From Myxococcales bacterium (GTDB lineage Bacteria; Myxococcota_A; Polyangia; Polyangiales; Houyiibacteriaceae): a stretch of 35,722 nucleotides of DNA. The notes under the pieces were generated by a model that was not told the DNA's origin, did not search any database, and saw only the letters and a program-made list of their open reading frames with translations. Shown piece after piece: positions 15,960 to 21,536 of this stretch. The position numbers and the translations under genes are program-made. The stretch lies in NCBI GenBank assembly GCA_019637115.1, contig JAHBWH010000076.1, positions 1 to 35,722 of the forward strand. The letters run 5' to 3'. Positions within the stretch are counted from its first letter, which is position 1. The number at the start of each line of letters is the position of its first letter.

Positions 15960-17315
15960 TCAGACCGCGAGCGAGAGTCCGTCCACGCGGATCGGGTGCG
16001 AGATGCCCAGGTAGAAGCGGCTCGGGAAGTAGTGGACCATCTCCGTCGTGCCGTCCGCGACCCGGATCACCTGCGCGTACTCGCTGTTCGTCGACGTCAC
16101 GCAGAGCAGCTCGCCATCCTGCGAGGGGTAGACGCCGAAGATGATCGCGCGGTCGGTCGTCGCGTTCCGCACCTTCAGCGCCTTCCACAGCGTCATCGTC
16201 TCCGCGTCCACGAGGTGCACGATGCTCGGCGCCGTCACCGTGCAGATCAGCTTCCGACCGCGATGCATGAACGTCCAGTGGATCGAGCCCCGCGTGAAGT
16301 CCTCGCGCGTATAGCGCCCGAGGAACTTCGGCCCGTCCGGCGTGAGCCGAAATTTGTCGAGGCTCGCCGGTCCGCAGAACGCGATCGTGTGGATCTCCTC
16401 GATCCGCCAGCCCGTCTCCAGCCACCGCGGGATCCACTCGCGCATCGGGCGGATCGTGAACTTGAAGTTGTGGTTCGAGACGTAGATGACGTGCGGGTCC
16501 TCGCAGTCGATCTCCGCGTGCGCCCCCGTCGTGAGATCGCCGATCTCCCAGTGCCGCCCGCTCTTCAGGTCGACGACGAGCGCCTTCGAGGTGCTGATCG
16601 CGTTCGCGTCGGCGGTGACGTCGATCTGACTCGCGACCGCGTAGCGATGGTCGGGCGTCAGCCGGAAGTCGTCGATCACGTCCGCGTAGATCCCCTCCCA
16701 CTCGAGGTGCATCTCGTCGGTGAGCGTGTCTCTCCGCCAGATCTTCGAGCGGACGGGCCGCTGGCGGTCTTCGAGCCCCCGCCGGAAGAAATCCTCGAGC
16801 GAGTAGGACATGAACCAATCTTGGCGCCCTTCGGCGTCCCAGTAGTGGTGCGACGAGAGGAGATCGCCGCCGATCTCGGGGTCCACGTTCGTGACCGTGC
16901 GCGCGTCGAGGTCCACCTCCACGTAGTCCTTGTGCGCGAGGTGGCCGACGATGAAGCGACCTCCCCCCGCGTGTGTGATCCAATGCGGGGACGAGCCGAA
17001 GTAGAGGAAGAACACCGCGCTCAACCCCGGGGGATGGGGCGGGAAGCGCGAGGCGAGCCCACGGAGCCTCGGAAAATGGCGGTAGCCGAGGCAGCGCTCC
17101 ACGACCTCGTCGTAGAACGCGAGCCCCTTGCGGAGCGAGTCGATCCGCTTGGTGTCGACCACCGTCGCGACCGCGTTGCGCATGTCGAGGAAGTGGTACG
17201 AGTGCCGGAAGGTGTAGCCGTAGCCGTTCGCGAGGCAGAGCACCGAGTCGTGGGGCGTGCGGCACGCCGAGATCGGGCTCGTCGTGAAGTCGGCGGCGAT
17301 GGGGACGTGCTTCAC
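15960..17315 (-). CDS. Unrecognised 451-residue protein, probably beta-propeller-like
   Basis: The protein has many short strand-turn-strand units with Asp/Gly turns and aromatic residues, such as HWITHAGGGRFIVGHLAHKDYVEVD and VIYVSNHNFKFTIRP. This rhythm suggests a beta-propeller without a classic WD40 or Kelch signature. There is no signal peptide or membrane helix, so it is probably cytosolic. Its GTG start overlaps the TGA of the chorismatase-like gene (GTGA, 17312-17315), indicating translational coupling and a shared task. I considered carotenoid/stilbene oxygenases, also seven-bladed propellers, but could not find their four iron-binding His motifs. It could be an enzyme or a binding partner acting on the chorismatase product. 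Function unknown. Confidence 0.6.
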   Translation of the reverse strand: MKHVPIAADFTTSPISACRTPHDSVLCLANGYGYTFRHSYHFLDMRNAVATVVDTKRIDSLRKGLAFYDEVVERCLGYRHFPRLRGLASRFPPHPPGLSAVFFLYFGSSPHWITHAGGGRFIVGHLAHKDYVEVDLDARTVTNVDPEIGGDLLSSHHYWDAEGRQDWFMSYSLEDFFRRGLEDRQRPVRSKIWRRDTLTDEMHLEWEGIYADVIDDFRLTPDHRYAVASQIDVTADANAISTSKALVVDLKSGRHWEIGDLTTGAHAEIDCEDPHVIYVSNHNFKFTIRPMREWIPRWLETGWRIEEIHTIAFCGPASLDKFRLTPDGPKFLGRYTREDFTRGSIHWTFMHRGRKLICTVTAPSIVHLVDAETMTLWKALKVRNATTDRAIIFGVYPSQDGELLCVTSTNSEYAQVIRVADGTTEMVHYFPSRFYLGISHPIRVDGLSLAV

Positions 17316-18472
17316 CGTGCGCTCCTACCGGAGCTCACGTCCGTGACGGCGAGGCAGTCGATCTCGAAGAGCAGATCGTCTCGGCAGACGTCCGCCCACA
17401 CCGGCACGAAGGGGATGTCGTCGAGCTCGAGATGCCGGACGATGCGGCGAAACGAGTCGTAGGCGGCCTCGTCCTTGCAGAACGCGGTGGCATGGCAGAT
17501 GTCGCGCAGCCGCGTCGACTGCCCGTCGAGCAACGACGCGACGTCGAGGATGGTCTCGAGCACCTGCGCCTGCGGATCGCCGACGTGCACGGTCTCACCG
17601 CGCGTGTCGATGCTCGCCGTCCCCGAGATGTAGAGCGTCGGCATGTCGTCGCTCTGGACGCGGACACCACGCGAGAACGACGAGCCGTACTCCCACGCCT
17701 CGTTCTGGCGAGCGTTGTGGATCATCGCGCGCTCTGGCCCTCGGACGGCGAGCACGTCCATGAAGCATTCCTCGCCCTCGGCGCGACGACCGCGGATGCC
17801 CGTGCTGGCGGGGAGCAACCTCACCTCTCGCCCACCGAGCAGACCGAGCTCGCGGAAATACGCGGTGCGCACCCGGTTGAGCTCGCCGTACCACTCCAGG
17901 ATGCGCGGCACGTAGATCCAGGTCCGCACGATGTCGGTCGCCTCGAGCCCCTCCGCCACGAGCAGCGCGACCGCCCGCCGAAACATCCGCTCGGCCTGCG
18001 CGCTCACGTCGCCCGTCTCGTCGCCCCTCACGGGCGCGCCCGAGACCCCGGCGAGATGCACCAGCCGCTCGTCACCCGCGCACATCCGGCGCCCGACGGG
18101 CTCCCCCTCCGCCACGATCGTCTCGACCGTCACGTCCCCACCTGGCACGACCCCGAAGAGCTGCACCCCCGCGAGCGCACCGCCGACGCAGGGCGCCCCA
18201 TCGATGACGGTCGGTCGCGCCTCGGGATCGAAGCCCGCGGACGCGTACCCGCGGCGGCGCGCCGACAAGATCCGATCGTGGTCGGCGAAGCGACCATGGA
18301 TCTTCTCCTGCAGCGCGGCGCATCGCTGCGAAACGGCCGCGCGCCCGAGCTCCGCGAAGACGGCCACGAGGCCCTCGTCGTCGGCGACCGGCGCCGCGAG
18401 GCTCCCCGTGAGGTAGACGTCACGGCGCGCGGGGCGCTGCACCGTGCGGACATGGATGCGTTGCTGACTCAT
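17312..18472 (-). CDS. Chorismatase-like protein (FkbO/Hyg5/XanB2 family, RidA-like fold)
   Basis: The 386-residue protein shows the chorismatase plan: 'RTWIYVPRILEWYGELNRVRTAYF', 'PASTGIRG', 'YGSSFSRGV', 'LYISGTASI' and a C-terminal DVCRDDLLFEID segment. Chorismatases split chorismate into pyruvate plus a dihydroxycyclohexadienoate (FkbO) or 3-hydroxybenzoate (Hyg5), or into 3-/4-hydroxybenzoate (XanB2). Glu370 would be the catalytic Glu. A Cys seven residues before it (Cys363) is the feature I recall from Hyg5-type enzymes, hinting at 3-hydroxybenzoate. A non-enzymatic RidA-type protein is the alternative. The start at ATG 18472 drops an Arg-rich extension. It is coupled to the 451-residue protein downstream and divergent from a chorismate mutase-DAHP synthase gene, which supports the assignment. 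Confidence 0.65.
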   Translation of the reverse strand: MSQQRIHVRTVQRPARRDVYLTGSLAAPVADDEGLVAVFAELGRAAVSQRCAALQEKIHGRFADHDRILSARRRGYASAGFDPEARPTVIDGAPCVGGALAGVQLFGVVPGGDVTVETIVAEGEPVGRRMCAGDERLVHLAGVSGAPVRGDETGDVSAQAERMFRRAVALLVAEGLEATDIVRTWIYVPRILEWYGELNRVRTAYFRELGLLGGREVRLLPASTGIRGRRAEGEECFMDVLAVRGPERAMIHNARQNEAWEYGSSFSRGVRVQSDDMPTLYISGTASIDTRGETVHVGDPQAQVLETILDVASLLDGQSTRLRDICHATAFCKDEAAYDSFRRIVRHLELDDIPFVPVWADVCRDDLLFEIDCLAVTDVSSGRSAR

Positions 18473-18863
18473 CGTTCTGCTGGGCCTCCGGGTCGCGACG
18501 CGCCCTTCTCCACCCCGAGCCTTTCGGGACGAGAGGAACACGTTTCATAGACTGAACTCTCGGCTCACGTGTCTTCTGTATGCACGCAACACCGAACGAG
18601 ACGGCTAGCACGCGACACCAGACGAGCGATCTCATCCTTGATTGACCGCAACGACACCGATAGAACGCGTGCTAACCTCGATCGCCGGCGAGCGACCGCG
18701 CCAGACGCGCCCGGACGCCTCCCGAAGCCTCGAAAGACCGCAAAAACGAGGACACCGACCGACACGGAGCCGGTCGTTCGACACCTCCGCGGCCCGCTCG
18801 AGGCGAAGGCAGCTTGCGTCGCGACAACCAACCGCCCACGCCACACGTTAGCGTGCGCCTCCC
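18473..18863. other. 391-bp divergent intergenic region
   Basis: This stretch has visibly lower GC than its surroundings and no convincing coding pattern. It separates the chorismatase-like operon from the DAHP synthase gene and must hold promoters for both. Apart from the promoter candidate at 18638-18666, a 6-bp stem CGACCG/CGGTCG at about 18758-18778 lies in the leader of the DAHP synthase gene. I saw no leader peptide rich in aromatic codons and no clear terminator/antiterminator pair. Confidence 0.45.
18638..18666 (+). promoter_or_regulatory. Candidate sigma-70-type promoter
   Basis: TTGATT and TAGAAC are separated by 17 bp, each matching 4 of 6 consensus bases. It points toward the chorismate mutase-DAHP synthase gene, implying a leader of about 190 nt. 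It was found by eye, and in GC-rich DNA such matches can occur by chance. Confidence 0.3.
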
Positions 18864-20021
18864 ATGCACGGGACGGCAAACGCAGAACGGCTCATCTCTC
18901 TACGGACCGACGTCGAGCGCCTCAGCCTCGACATCCTCCGGCTCTTGAATCATCGAATTCGCGCCGTTCGCGAGATCGGCACGCTGAAGATCGCCGACGG
19001 GATGCCGCTCCGCGACCGGGAGCGCGAGGAGGCGTTGCTCCGGCGGCTGAGCGCGGACAACGAGGGCCCGCTCGACGAGCCCGCCATGCGCGACGTGTTC
19101 CATCGCATTCTCGAGGCGGGCGTTCGACTGGTCCGCTCGGGCCGCCCCGACGGCCTGCGCGTCGAAGCGGACGAGCTCCGCCGCCCCCTGCGCGCCGGAG
19201 GCCATACGCTGGACGGGCTCGCCTACGTCGCGGGTCCCTGCGCCATCGAGAGCGAGGCCCAGCTCGACGCCACCGCGGCGCGTCTCGCCGCGCTCGGCGT
19301 GCGCTTCCTCCGCGGCGGCACCTTCAAACCCCGGACGTCTCCCTACAGCTTCCAGGGGCTCGGGGCGCCGGCCGTGCGCATGCTCCGCGACGCCGGGGAG
19401 CGCCACGGGCTCGCGACCATCACGGAGGTCACGAGCCCCACTCAGGTCGAGCTCGTCGCCGAGCACGTCGACGTCCTGCAGGTGGGCGCGCGCAACATGT
19501 ACAACTACGAGCTGCTCCGCGAGCTCGGCCGCGCCGGCCGGCCGGTGCTCCTCAAGCGTGGCCTCTCGGCGACGATCGAAGAGTGGCTCCTCGCCGCCGA
19601 GCACCTCTCGGTCTCCGGCGCCGAGCAGATCGTGCTCTGCGAGCGAGGGATCCGCGGCTTCGACCGCGAGACGCGCTTCTCACTCGATCTCTCGAGCGTG
19701 CCCGTGCTCGCGCAGCGCACCGGCCTCCCCGTCATGGTCGACGTCAGCCACGCCGCCGGCCGCCGAGACATCCTCCTCCCACTCACCCGCGCCGCCTTCG
19801 CGGTCGGCGCCTGCGCGGTGATGCTCGAGGTCCACCCCGACCCCGACTCCGCCCTCTCGGACGCCGAGCAGCAGCTCTCGTTCGACGCCTTCGAGGCGCT
19901 CGTCCGCGCGGTCCCGCGCGATCTCGCCTCCGCCGCGATGGAGCTCGCGCGCGCGCTCCCCCACCCGGCCGAGGGGCGCGCTCACGCGACGAGCGCGGGC
20001 GCAGCCATCTCCGCGCCCTGA
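18864..20021 (+). CDS. Chorismate mutase-DAHP synthase fusion
   Basis: The 385-residue protein fuses an AroQ-type chorismate mutase (about 10-92: LRTDVERLSLDILRLLNHR, with KIADGMPLRDREREEALLRRL) to a class I-beta DAHP synthase (about 115-350). The synthase part shows GPCAIES (124-130), GGTFKPRTSPYSFQG (151-165), GARNMYNYELL, KRGLSATIEEWL, CERGIRGF and DVSHAAGRRD. It makes the first shikimate-pathway intermediate, and its mutase domain either converts chorismate to prephenate or serves as the feedback-sensing domain. The ATG at 18864 lacks an obvious ribosome site. The last codons run into a tandem repeat array that also holds the stop codon. Next to a chorismatase gene, it would raise chorismate supply for a dedicated pathway. 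It may instead be the housekeeping enzyme. Confidence 0.88.
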   Translation: MHGTANAERLISLRTDVERLSLDILRLLNHRIRAVREIGTLKIADGMPLRDREREEALLRRLSADNEGPLDEPAMRDVFHRILEAGVRLVRSGRPDGLRVEADELRRPLRAGGHTLDGLAYVAGPCAIESEAQLDATAARLAALGVRFLRGGTFKPRTSPYSFQGLGAPAVRMLRDAGERHGLATITEVTSPTQVELVAEHVDVLQVGARNMYNYELLRELGRAGRPVLLKRGLSATIEEWLLAAEHLSVSGAEQIVLCERGIRGFDRETRFSLDLSSVPVLAQRTGLPVMVDVSHAAGRRDILLPLTRAAFAVGACAVMLEVHPDPDSALSDAEQQLSFDAFEALVRAVPRDLASAAMELARALPHPAEGRAHATSAGAAISAP

Positions 20022-20118
20022 GCGCGACCCTCTCCGCGCCTCGAGCGCCCATCTCCGCGCCTCGAGCGCGCCCACCTCCGCGCCTGAGCGCGCCATCTCC
20101 GCGCCCTGAGCGCGCCCT
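20005..20118. repeat. Degenerate tandem repeat array, about five units of 22-24 bp
   Basis: Units of the form CATCTCCGCGCC(CT/TC)GAGCGCGC recur five times with small length and base changes. The first unit contains the last codons and the stop codon of the DAHP synthase gene. The array fills most of the gap to the U32-family gene. It is too short, too variable and without spacers for a CRISPR array. Confidence 0.75.
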
Positions 20119-20177
20119 GACCCGAGTCGTTCGATCCGCGCTGCGCCGCGACGCGCGGATCCGTGAAAGGAGCCCCC

Positions 20178-21536
20178 GTGAGGCTGAGCGTTGCATGCAA
20201 TTTCGACGAGGAGCTGCTCGATGGCCTCGTCGGTCATCCCGTCTACGAGGTCTACGGCAAGGTGACCCGCGACCACGCGGGGGGAGGCCGCCCGTCCTTC
20301 TACCTGCCGCAGGTCGACCGGCCGATGGTCGAGCGTTGGGTTCGCGAGACCCACGCCCGCGGCATCGAGTTCAACTACCTCATGAACGCCTCGTGCATGG
20401 GGAACGCCGAGTACACGCGCGAGGGTCAGCGCCACATCCGCGACACCCTCGACTGGATCTCGGAGATCGGCTGCGACAGCGTCACCGTCGCGACGATCTT
20501 CATGCTGCAGATCGTCAAGCGGTCCTACCCCAAGCTCAAGGTCCGCATCAGCGCGCATCGCTTCACCGACAGCGTCCGCAAGGCGCGCTTCTGGGAGGAC
20601 CACGGCGCGGACTGCATCGTGCTCAACGAGACCGCCTTCGCGCGCGAGTTCGCCGCGCTGCGCGCGATCCGAGAGGCCGTGAAGTGCGACCTCTCGCTCA
20701 TCGTCAACAACTCCTGCCGGCAGGATTGCGCGATCGCGGGCACGCACGCGACGAGCCTGAGCCACGGGTCGCAGCTCCAGAGCCGCGGGCTGCCGCTCGA
20801 CTATCACATGCTCTTCTGCCTCGACTACCGCCTGCGCGAGCCGGTGAACTACGTCCGCGCCAACTGGATCCGCCCCGAGGACCTCCACCACTACGAGGCG
20901 ATGGGCATCGACAACTTCAAGATCGTCGAGCGGAACACGCCGACGCCCGAGCTCCTCCGCCGCGTCCGCGCCTACGCGGCGCGCCGCTACGACGGAAACT
21001 TCTTCGACCTGGTGCTCCCCTTCGCCTACCCCGAGGAGGCGTACACCACGCGCGCCTCGCGCGACGCGTACAGCCTGAGGCGGGCCGCGAAGTACTTCGG
21101 CAAGCCGAGCCTGTTGAACGTCACGAAGGTCCCCAAGCTCGTCGCCCTCGGCAAGCGGCAGGGGCTGCTCTACCCGCGCCGCGGCGAGTCGGGCCTTCAC
21201 CTCGACAACCGCAAGCTCGACGGCTTCATCGATCGCTTCCTCTCGGACTCGTGCGTCGACGTCGACTGCGAAGAGTGCCGCTACTGCCACGACTTCGCGG
21301 ACCGCGCGCTCACCATCGACCCGAGCTACCGCGAGGAGGTCCTCGCGATGTACCGCGACCTCTTCGAGGACATGCACAGCGGCCCCTTCTGGGAGAAGCC
21401 GCGTCCCCGCGACTTCGTCGAAGTGGGCCGACTGACCATGCGCGCCGCACGGCGCGCCGCGGGCCGCGTCGTCCCCGCCCTCGCGCCGACGGAGGACCAC
21501 CTCCCCCACGTCGGCTGCCCCGCCGCCGAGCGATGA
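20178..21536 (+). CDS. U32-family protein with conserved cysteines (UbiU/UbiV/TrhP-like)
   Basis: The 452-residue protein has the TIM-barrel layout of the 'peptidase U32' family, including VRISAHRFTDSVRKARFWEDHGADCIVLN (about 122-150). Cys180 and Cys184 (NNSCRQDC) and Cys214 could bind an iron-sulfur cluster. A C-terminal group, Cys359, 364, 367 and 370 (DCEECRYC), could bind a second cluster or zinc. Known relatives are oxygen-independent hydroxylases (UbiU/UbiV) and RNA hydroxylases (TrhP, RlhA), not proven peptidases. The GTG at 20178 is preceded by AAAGGAG at 6 bases. A GTG 15 bases upstream would put the ribosome site inside the gene. Following the chorismate mutase-DAHP synthase gene on the same strand, it may hydroxylate a chorismate-derived ring. 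That function is inference. Confidence 0.6.
   Translation: MRLSVACNFDEELLDGLVGHPVYEVYGKVTRDHAGGGRPSFYLPQVDRPMVERWVRETHARGIEFNYLMNASCMGNAEYTREGQRHIRDTLDWISEIGCDSVTVATIFMLQIVKRSYPKLKVRISAHRFTDSVRKARFWEDHGADCIVLNETAFAREFAALRAIREAVKCDLSLIVNNSCRQDCAIAGTHATSLSHGSQLQSRGLPLDYHMLFCLDYRLREPVNYVRANWIRPEDLHHYEAMGIDNFKIVERNTPTPELLRRVRAYAARRYDGNFFDLVLPFAYPEEAYTTRASRDAYSLRRAAKYFGKPSLLNVTKVPKLVALGKRQGLLYPRRGESGLHLDNRKLDGFIDRFLSDSCVDVDCEECRYCHDFADRALTIDPSYREEVLAMYRDLFEDMHSGPFWEKPRPRDFVEVGRLTMRAARRAAGRVVPALAPTEDHLPHVGCPAAER

Follow-up and report, generated by a model that had tools for sequence, protein, structure and literature searches.

Because the known squalene epoxidases (SE) consume O2, sterol synthesis is taught as a process with a strict need for O2, and steranes preserved as fossils serve as a sign that oxygen was present in the ancient past. 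When bacterial sterol makers were surveyed, no oxidosqualene cyclase (OSC) was found in an anaerobe, and it was noted that an alternate pathway might be discovered (PMC4919349). The U32 hydroxylases UbiUV, TrhP and RlhA hydroxylate their substrates without O2; TrhP and RlhA genetically require prephenate (PMC6599085), and the hydroxyl group of anaerobic ubiquinone reportedly derives from prephenate (PNAS 2024, as cited in PMC11574389). Our literature search found no paper linking U32 proteins with squalene, hopanoids or sterols. Here we analysed a U32 gene and its neighbours in a 35,722-nucleotide stretch of DNA from a Myxococcales bacterium (contig JAHBWH010000076.1), called the window throughout. 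The U32 gene belongs to a cassette of two back-to-back modules, a chorismatase-like gene with the gene of a protein named X451 on the left, and a fused chorismate mutase-DAHP synthase (CM-DAHPS) gene with the U32 gene on the right. We give about an even chance to the reading that the right module is, judging from sequence, a prephenate-dependent, O2-independent squalene oxygenation unit feeding OSC, and that the left module is separate and probably serves 3-hydroxybenzoate formation. The features are as follows.

15960..17315, minus strand: X451, a 451-residue protein of no family (open reading frame)
17312..18472, minus strand: chorismatase-like enzyme of the Rid/FkbO-Hyg5 superfamily, 386 residues from ATG
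18473..18863: divergent intergenic region between the two modules, 391 bp with the ATG start
18864..20021, plus strand: CM-DAHPS, a fusion of an AroQ-type chorismate mutase (CM) and a DAHP synthase (DAHPS)
19999..20118: GC-rich imperfect tandem repeat, ~23-bp / 44-bp period, covering the end of CM-DAHPS and the gap before U32
20163..21536, plus strand: U32-family iron-sulfur protein of a new clade, assigned by PF01136, fold, invariant cysteines and tree

The four genes, the GTGA overlap and the 391-bp divergent gap described in an earlier note on this DNA are all present, and the frames are open. A sigma-70-type promoter match was sought in the divergent region (18473..18863), and none was found.

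The U32 pair and its gene context

The window U32 protein matched PF01136 with 43 bits (cut-off 22.4), and only 88 residues were covered. Its AlphaFold2 model, built with 20 sequences, had a pLDDT of 87 and matched the solved U32 structure 5d88 (Foldseek 1.8e-13; Z 21.4 over 232 residues). By its domain and its predicted TIM-barrel fold, the protein is a member of the U32 hydroxylase (U32 oxidase) superfamily, and the earlier suggestion that it works without O2 agrees with the literature on these hydroxylases. A plain TrhP or UbiU orthologue was rejected, as the scores were below the cut-offs (17.1 bits vs 534 for TrhP and 12.4 vs 440 for UbiU). Beyond the window's own genome, at least 16 genomes had relatives with 54-75% identity; 15 are from Myxococcota or 'Deltaproteobacteria' and one is labelled Flavobacteriales. 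Two distant relatives (40% and 32%) lie in overlapping tandem in G268 (L064:375-2773; G and L numbers denote genomes and loci), a genome without an OSC-class cyclase.

Thirteen cysteines are present in the window U32, eight of which do not vary within the core clade (C12, C185, C189, C219, C364, C369, C372 and C375). The iron-sulfur pattern of characterised U32 members is CX6CX15CX3C, whereas the spacing in the window clade is CX3C...CX3C, with His215 at the fourth position in the window. C12 and a C-terminal CX4CX2CX2C are extra cysteines of this clade. Position 215 is occupied by Cys in 12 of the 17 clade rows, by His in the window, G430 and G008, and by Ser in G153. The window U32 formed a subclade with those of G430 and G008 (support 100/100), which grouped at modest support (81/68) with that of G153, where the U32 gene lies inside a full sterol cluster and no SE was detected in the genome.

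CM-DAHPS directly adjoins U32 in at least 12 genomes (the window, G430, G008, G282, G148, G149, G153, G110, G317, G325, G159 and G254). A DAHPS is also found on the U32 contig, beside the cyclase, in G354 and G209, and in G329 and G150 the contig breaks off at U32. The two genes overlap in L006 and L007, as opposed to the repeat-bearing gap in the window. In other genomes, isoprenoid genes surround the pair. The G282 cluster contains HMG-CoA synthase, OSC, U32, CM-DAHPS and FPP synthase, followed by HpnC, HpnD and a truncated HpnE. The G159 cluster has HpnD/HpnE and mevalonate genes around FPP synthase, CM-DAHPS, U32, a GGR-like reductase and OSC. That of G153 combines an isoprenoid part (HpnE/D/C, HMG-CoA reductase, mevalonate kinases and decarboxylase, an IDI-2-like enzyme and FPP synthase) with U32, CM-DAHPS, a FadL-like protein, OSC and a GGR-like protein. 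Partly similar neighbourhoods were observed in G209, G354, G148 and G149. A GAF/PAS histidine kinase and a sigma-54 response regulator recur beside HpnE or the U32 pair (L010:1817-5175, typed by Pfam; L009, L061, L145, L201 and L055:2708-5964, with the same sizes), a possible oxygen- or redox-responsive control.

The cyclases linked to U32 carry the DCT(A/S)E motif (TDCTAEG in G282). The G282 cyclase matched human lanosterol synthase (1w6k) over the full length with an E value of 1e-177 and 595 bits, compared to 170 bits for squalene-hopene cyclase; its score with TIGR03463 was 742 bits, below the cut-off of 851. By motif and alignment, the U32-linked cyclases are of the oxidosqualene-cyclase type and resemble lanosterol synthase. 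Across a sample of 379 genomes, an OSC-class match was present in 14 of the 14 core-U32 genomes vs 49 of the 365 others (p 3e-12), with the class assigned by score band; on inspection, two of the 49 were not OSC. An OSC-class match was likewise present in the Bacteroidota bin that has a core U32.

The window CM-DAHPS showed clear CM_2 and DAHP_synth_1 domains and scored 402 bits with the bifunctional model PRK12595 (cut-off 279). All mapped catalytic residues are intact, RRKDRE in the CM domain and CKRKRRHEHD in the DAHPS domain. G008, one of the two nearest tree relatives of the window U32, has a CM-DAHPS beside U32 (L007:8907-10016) in which 5 of the 10 mapped DAHPS active-site positions are lost (LGEERRHRHN vs CKRKRRHEHD), but the CM domain still has 6 of its 6 mapped residues (RRKDRE). 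The R, R, K, R and E of this set are retained by nearly all other CM domains. Because the DAHPS half in G008 is destroyed while the CM residues are retained, and because no CM domain is seen in the DAHPS that adjoin chorismatase-like genes in G169 and G329, the conserved output beside U32 looks like a supply of prephenate, the product of chorismate mutase. Indirectly, the linked CM, kept even where the DAHPS half is dead, suggests that the window U32 clade may depend on prephenate.

Squalene epoxidase and the copy in the window

We searched for SE with PF08491 in 54 genomes with an OSC-class match, and then in G150. The domain was present in 38 of the 38 OSC-class genomes without a core U32 and in 8 of the 17 core-U32 genomes (G000, G008, G110, G430, G254, G260, G325 and G150), and was not found in the other nine (G282, G317, G153, G159, G209, G329, G354, G148 and G149). 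The absence in 9/17 genomes with a core U32 vs 0/38 without gave a Fisher p of 4e-6, with the 38 controls chosen from the printed OSC-score class and 11 further cyclase genomes left out. Inspected by locus, SE is adjacent or fused in five of these 11, two are not true OSC, and the loci of four (G170, G048, G331 and G248) give no answer on SE. Completeness is 89-99% for several of the SE-less assemblies, 68% for one and without an estimate for two, and chance loss of SE in all nine is therefore unlikely. Fusion proteins of SE and OSC (~1,130-1,160 residues) were seen in several genomes (L141:8184-11600, L156:747-4175, L194:6372-9854 and L195:1414-4794).

The gene pair added to the usual pathway in the SE-less clusters is U32 with CM-DAHPS, mostly accompanied by a GGR-like flavoprotein. 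This addition, together with the sterol-cluster context, the co-occurrence with OSC and the lack of SE, leads us to propose that the clade oxygenates squalene with prephenate. The DAHPS half would push carbon into the shikimate pathway, the CM domain would make prephenate, and the U32 iron-sulfur protein would take prephenate as the oxygen donor. The clade substrate would most likely be squalene, converted to 2,3-oxidosqualene or an equivalent 3-oxygenated product, and OSC would then form 3-hydroxy-triterpenoids or sterols without O2. The genomic case for an oxygen-free entry into oxidosqualene metabolism is strong. A fuller proposal is that U32 with its own CM is an O2-independent squalene epoxidase with prephenate as the donor, that triterpenoids or sterols derived from oxidosqualene are thereby made without O2 in several lineages of Myxococcota, and perhaps also in a Bacteroidota relative, and that the window carries a copy of the module; we hold this tentatively, at slightly under an even chance.

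Several points weigh against squalene oxygenation. The U32 substrates described to our knowledge are aromatic rings or nucleobases; none is an alkene. The lack of SE rests on PF08491, with no genome-wide search made for alternative epoxidases of the PF04116 type, and all of the genomes are incomplete drafts, several being metagenome bins. The pairing has an exception in G260, where the U32-adjacent DAHPS (L062:1010-1822) has no CM domain. At position 215 the window subclade has His, as opposed to the Cys of E. coli U32 enzymes and of most clade members, although Ser is found there in the SE-less G153. The window U32 lies outside the sterol cluster, with OSC and SE on another contig. Furthermore, a GGR-like flavoprotein lies beside or near U32 in 8 of the 9 SE-less genomes and is thus also a candidate for the missing step.

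If the GGR-like flavoprotein or a PF04116-type enzyme were an unrecognised squalene epoxidase, U32 could instead be a prephenate-fed, O2-independent oxygenase of a later sterol or triterpenoid step, for example hydroxylation of the ring system or of a methyl group. Such a role would suit the linkage of U32 to the whole pathway, beyond the cyclase alone, and its presence in both SE-plus and SE-minus genomes. However, the GGR-like proteins have the reductase motif YxWxFP, and their best solved match is a digeranylgeranylglycerophospholipid reductase. With this motif and the closest similarity to archaeal lipid reductases, the protein more likely saturates a double bond, and we disfavoured it as the missing epoxidase. 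In addition, G110 has a GGR-like protein beside an SE-OSC fusion, and the cluster of the SE-less G282 (FPPS-CM-DAHPS-U32-OSC) has no GGR-like gene in the stretch read. We consider a later-step role unlikely.

The copy in the window has to be weighed on its own. Contig C2 of the same genome carries a conventional locus with OSC, HMG-CoA reductase, a Rieske oxygenase, and 3-beta-HSD-like and sterol-methyltransferase-like enzymes, as well as a squalene epoxidase/squalene synthase fusion of at least 1,033 residues (L140:14899-18000). The window, G430 and G008 genomes all keep SE and an OSC-class gene, and their U32 neighbourhoods contain no triterpenoid gene. The window copy may share the substrate of the clade, in which case the pair would act under low oxygen beside the O2-dependent SE, as UbiUV backs up UbiIHF. 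Alternatively, the U32 of this subclade could still be prephenate-dependent with a substrate changed from squalene, hence the retained SE and the departure from the sterol cluster. The replacement of Cys215 by His in all three, the kept SE and the neighbourhoods are in line with this alternative. But each of the three genomes holds an OSC-class gene, the subclade groups with the U32 of G153, which lacks Cys215 too and stands in a sterol cluster, and SE also coexists with U32s that keep Cys215 (G110, G254, G260 and G325); a changed substrate seems to us improbable. The window pair may be either a low-oxygen back-up or a changed-substrate enzyme.

For the clade as a whole, a full route to OSC with no detectable SE, and with U32 and its prephenate supply in the cluster, offers a named and expressible candidate and makes the question directly testable. 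If the proposal is true, U32 hydroxylases would extend from rings and nucleobases to an alkene lipid. The pairing with CM-DAHPS links a U32 enzyme genetically, and in a dedicated way, to the oxygen donor proposed for it, and the U32 half is the more interesting half of the cassette.

The chorismatase-like gene and X451

The frame of the chorismatase-like gene extends upstream to a GTG at 18541, giving 409 residues. The protein scored 56.1 bits with TIGR04444 (FkbO/Hyg5), below the subfamily cut-off of 325, and 53 bits with PF01042, above the cut-off; PF21168, the N-terminal domain, was below its cut-off. Alignment to FkbO (4bps), in line with the earlier note's assignment, placed the catalytic Glu at E393 (409-residue numbering, as for the following residues), corresponding to E338 of FkbO and E334 of Hyg5, and Cys386 and Gly307 at the two positions that mark the 3-hydroxybenzoate-forming Hyg5 class. 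We take the Hyg5 residues to be E334 for the Glu and C327 and G240 for the class-II Cys and Gly. Published work describes how the catalytic Glu functions in chorismatases and which Cys/Gly marks define class II (PMC7170507). In 12 of the 12 chorismatase-like relatives, the Glu, the Hyg5-position Cys and the SGTA Gly are kept. As these residues are retained family-wide, the chorismatase-like protein of the separate left module probably forms 3-hydroxybenzoate from chorismate.

Chorismatase-like relatives also adjoin a DAHP synthase in G110, G169 and G329, which makes the earlier idea of boosting chorismate and making hydroxybenzoate reasonable for the left half. That idea had included 4-hydroxybenzoate as an alternative product and ring modification by U32 as a further step of one four-gene pathway. 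The formation of 3-hydroxybenzoate is supported by E393, C386, G307 and the DAHPS neighbours; ring modification by U32 is not, since the U32 context points to squalene and sterols. The four genes are adjacent and divergent, with the chorismatase residues intact, and U32 enzymes hydroxylate aromatic rings, all of which would fit a single pathway. The gene neighbourhoods, however, separate the two pairs, for which reason we rejected it as the main interpretation. The four genes do not co-occur in relatives, an outcome that the earlier note had named as refuting. Among the seven U32 genomes tested apart from G110, five have CM-DAHPS/U32 without a chorismatase-like match; G148 and G151 (= G329) have only a distant chorismatase-like gene elsewhere in the genome, and the X451 gene was found in none of the seven. 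G110 itself carries U32/CM-DAHPS and chorismatase/X451/CM-DAHPS on different contigs, each with its own CM-DAHPS. Furthermore, the CM domain would drain chorismate to prephenate, away from the chorismatase, which counts against one hydroxybenzoate pathway; no such domain is seen in the DAHPS that neighbour chorismatase-like genes in G169 and G329. A single pathway is thus quite unlikely in our view, and the earlier interpretation is partly right for the chorismatase half and probably wrong for the U32 half. Support in the DAHPS tree was too poor to tell from which module the window CM-DAHPS came.

X451 is translationally coupled to the chorismatase-like gene through the GTGA overlap. It had no match in the Pfam or NCBIfam models, and its description as a protein of no known family stands. 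A relative was found in 1 of the 145 relatives searched, G110 (68% identical), and G110 was also the only genome with X451 among 379 phylum genomes, besides the window's own. There, X451 adjoins a 51% identical chorismatase-like gene with its own CM-DAHPS; it is followed, with an overlap, by a B12-binding radical SAM protein with DUF4070 (L004:1069-2658), which has weak NCBIfam matches to P-methyltransferases, a ladderane-type lipid protein and BchE. The AlphaFold2 model of X451, from two sequences, had a pLDDT of 47.5, and its Foldseek matches were assorted beta-propellers with a TM of ~0.2; for this reason we describe it, with low confidence, only as beta-rich and perhaps a beta-propeller. 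The larger proteins encoded next to other genes of the chorismatase-like family showed no similarity to X451. A role of X451 in binding or modifying the chorismatase product is possible.

Chorismatase-like genes recur beside proteins with CxxCH haem motifs (L149:1064-7491, L150:4837-12011, L151:2489-7362, L020:7591-11532 and L159:6131-9358). These are a pair of ~1,000 residues, 47% identical, in G091 and G169, an HZS-alpha-like protein in G315, a di-haem oxidoreductase in G329 and a four-motif protein in G205. FGE/SUMF1-like proteins also adjoin the chorismatase-like genes in G091 and G169.

Comparison with described enzymes

The chorismatase-like protein shares the Rid-type fold, the catalytic Glu and the Hyg5-type Cys and Gly with the FkbO/Hyg5 chorismatases (CH-I to CH-IV), but differs from them in its subfamily score, its N-terminal domain and its unusual partner X451. 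The window CM-DAHPS has the same two-domain architecture as the B. subtilis/Listeria-type enzymes (5j6f, 3nvt), whereas the window type is genetically tied to U32 and includes one relative with a dead DAHPS half and an intact CM. Bacterial squalene monooxygenase (SE/SQMO, PF08491) would fill the same step upstream of the cyclase as that proposed for U32; it is an FAD- and O2-dependent flavoprotein unrelated to U32, and it was not found in about half of the clade genomes.

TrhP and RlhA have the U32 domain and an aligned first Cys in common with the window U32, and they genetically need prephenate. They differ in acting on tRNA and rRNA and in their C-terminal region, and the window protein is below the TrhP cut-off. 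UbiU and UbiV, the O2-independent ubiquinone hydroxylases, share the U32 domain with the window clade, which like them has conserved cysteines, here putative ligands of an iron-sulfur cluster; their oxygen reportedly comes from prephenate, as proposed for this clade. UbiUV also coexist with the O2-dependent UbiIHF in one genome, like the window U32 beside squalene epoxidase. On the other hand, UbiU/UbiV act on a polyprenylated phenol ring as two subunits and do not have the C-terminal CX4CX2CX2C region of the window clade. Unlike the window U32, they have no CM-DAHPS linked to them in the part of the E. coli genome that was read.

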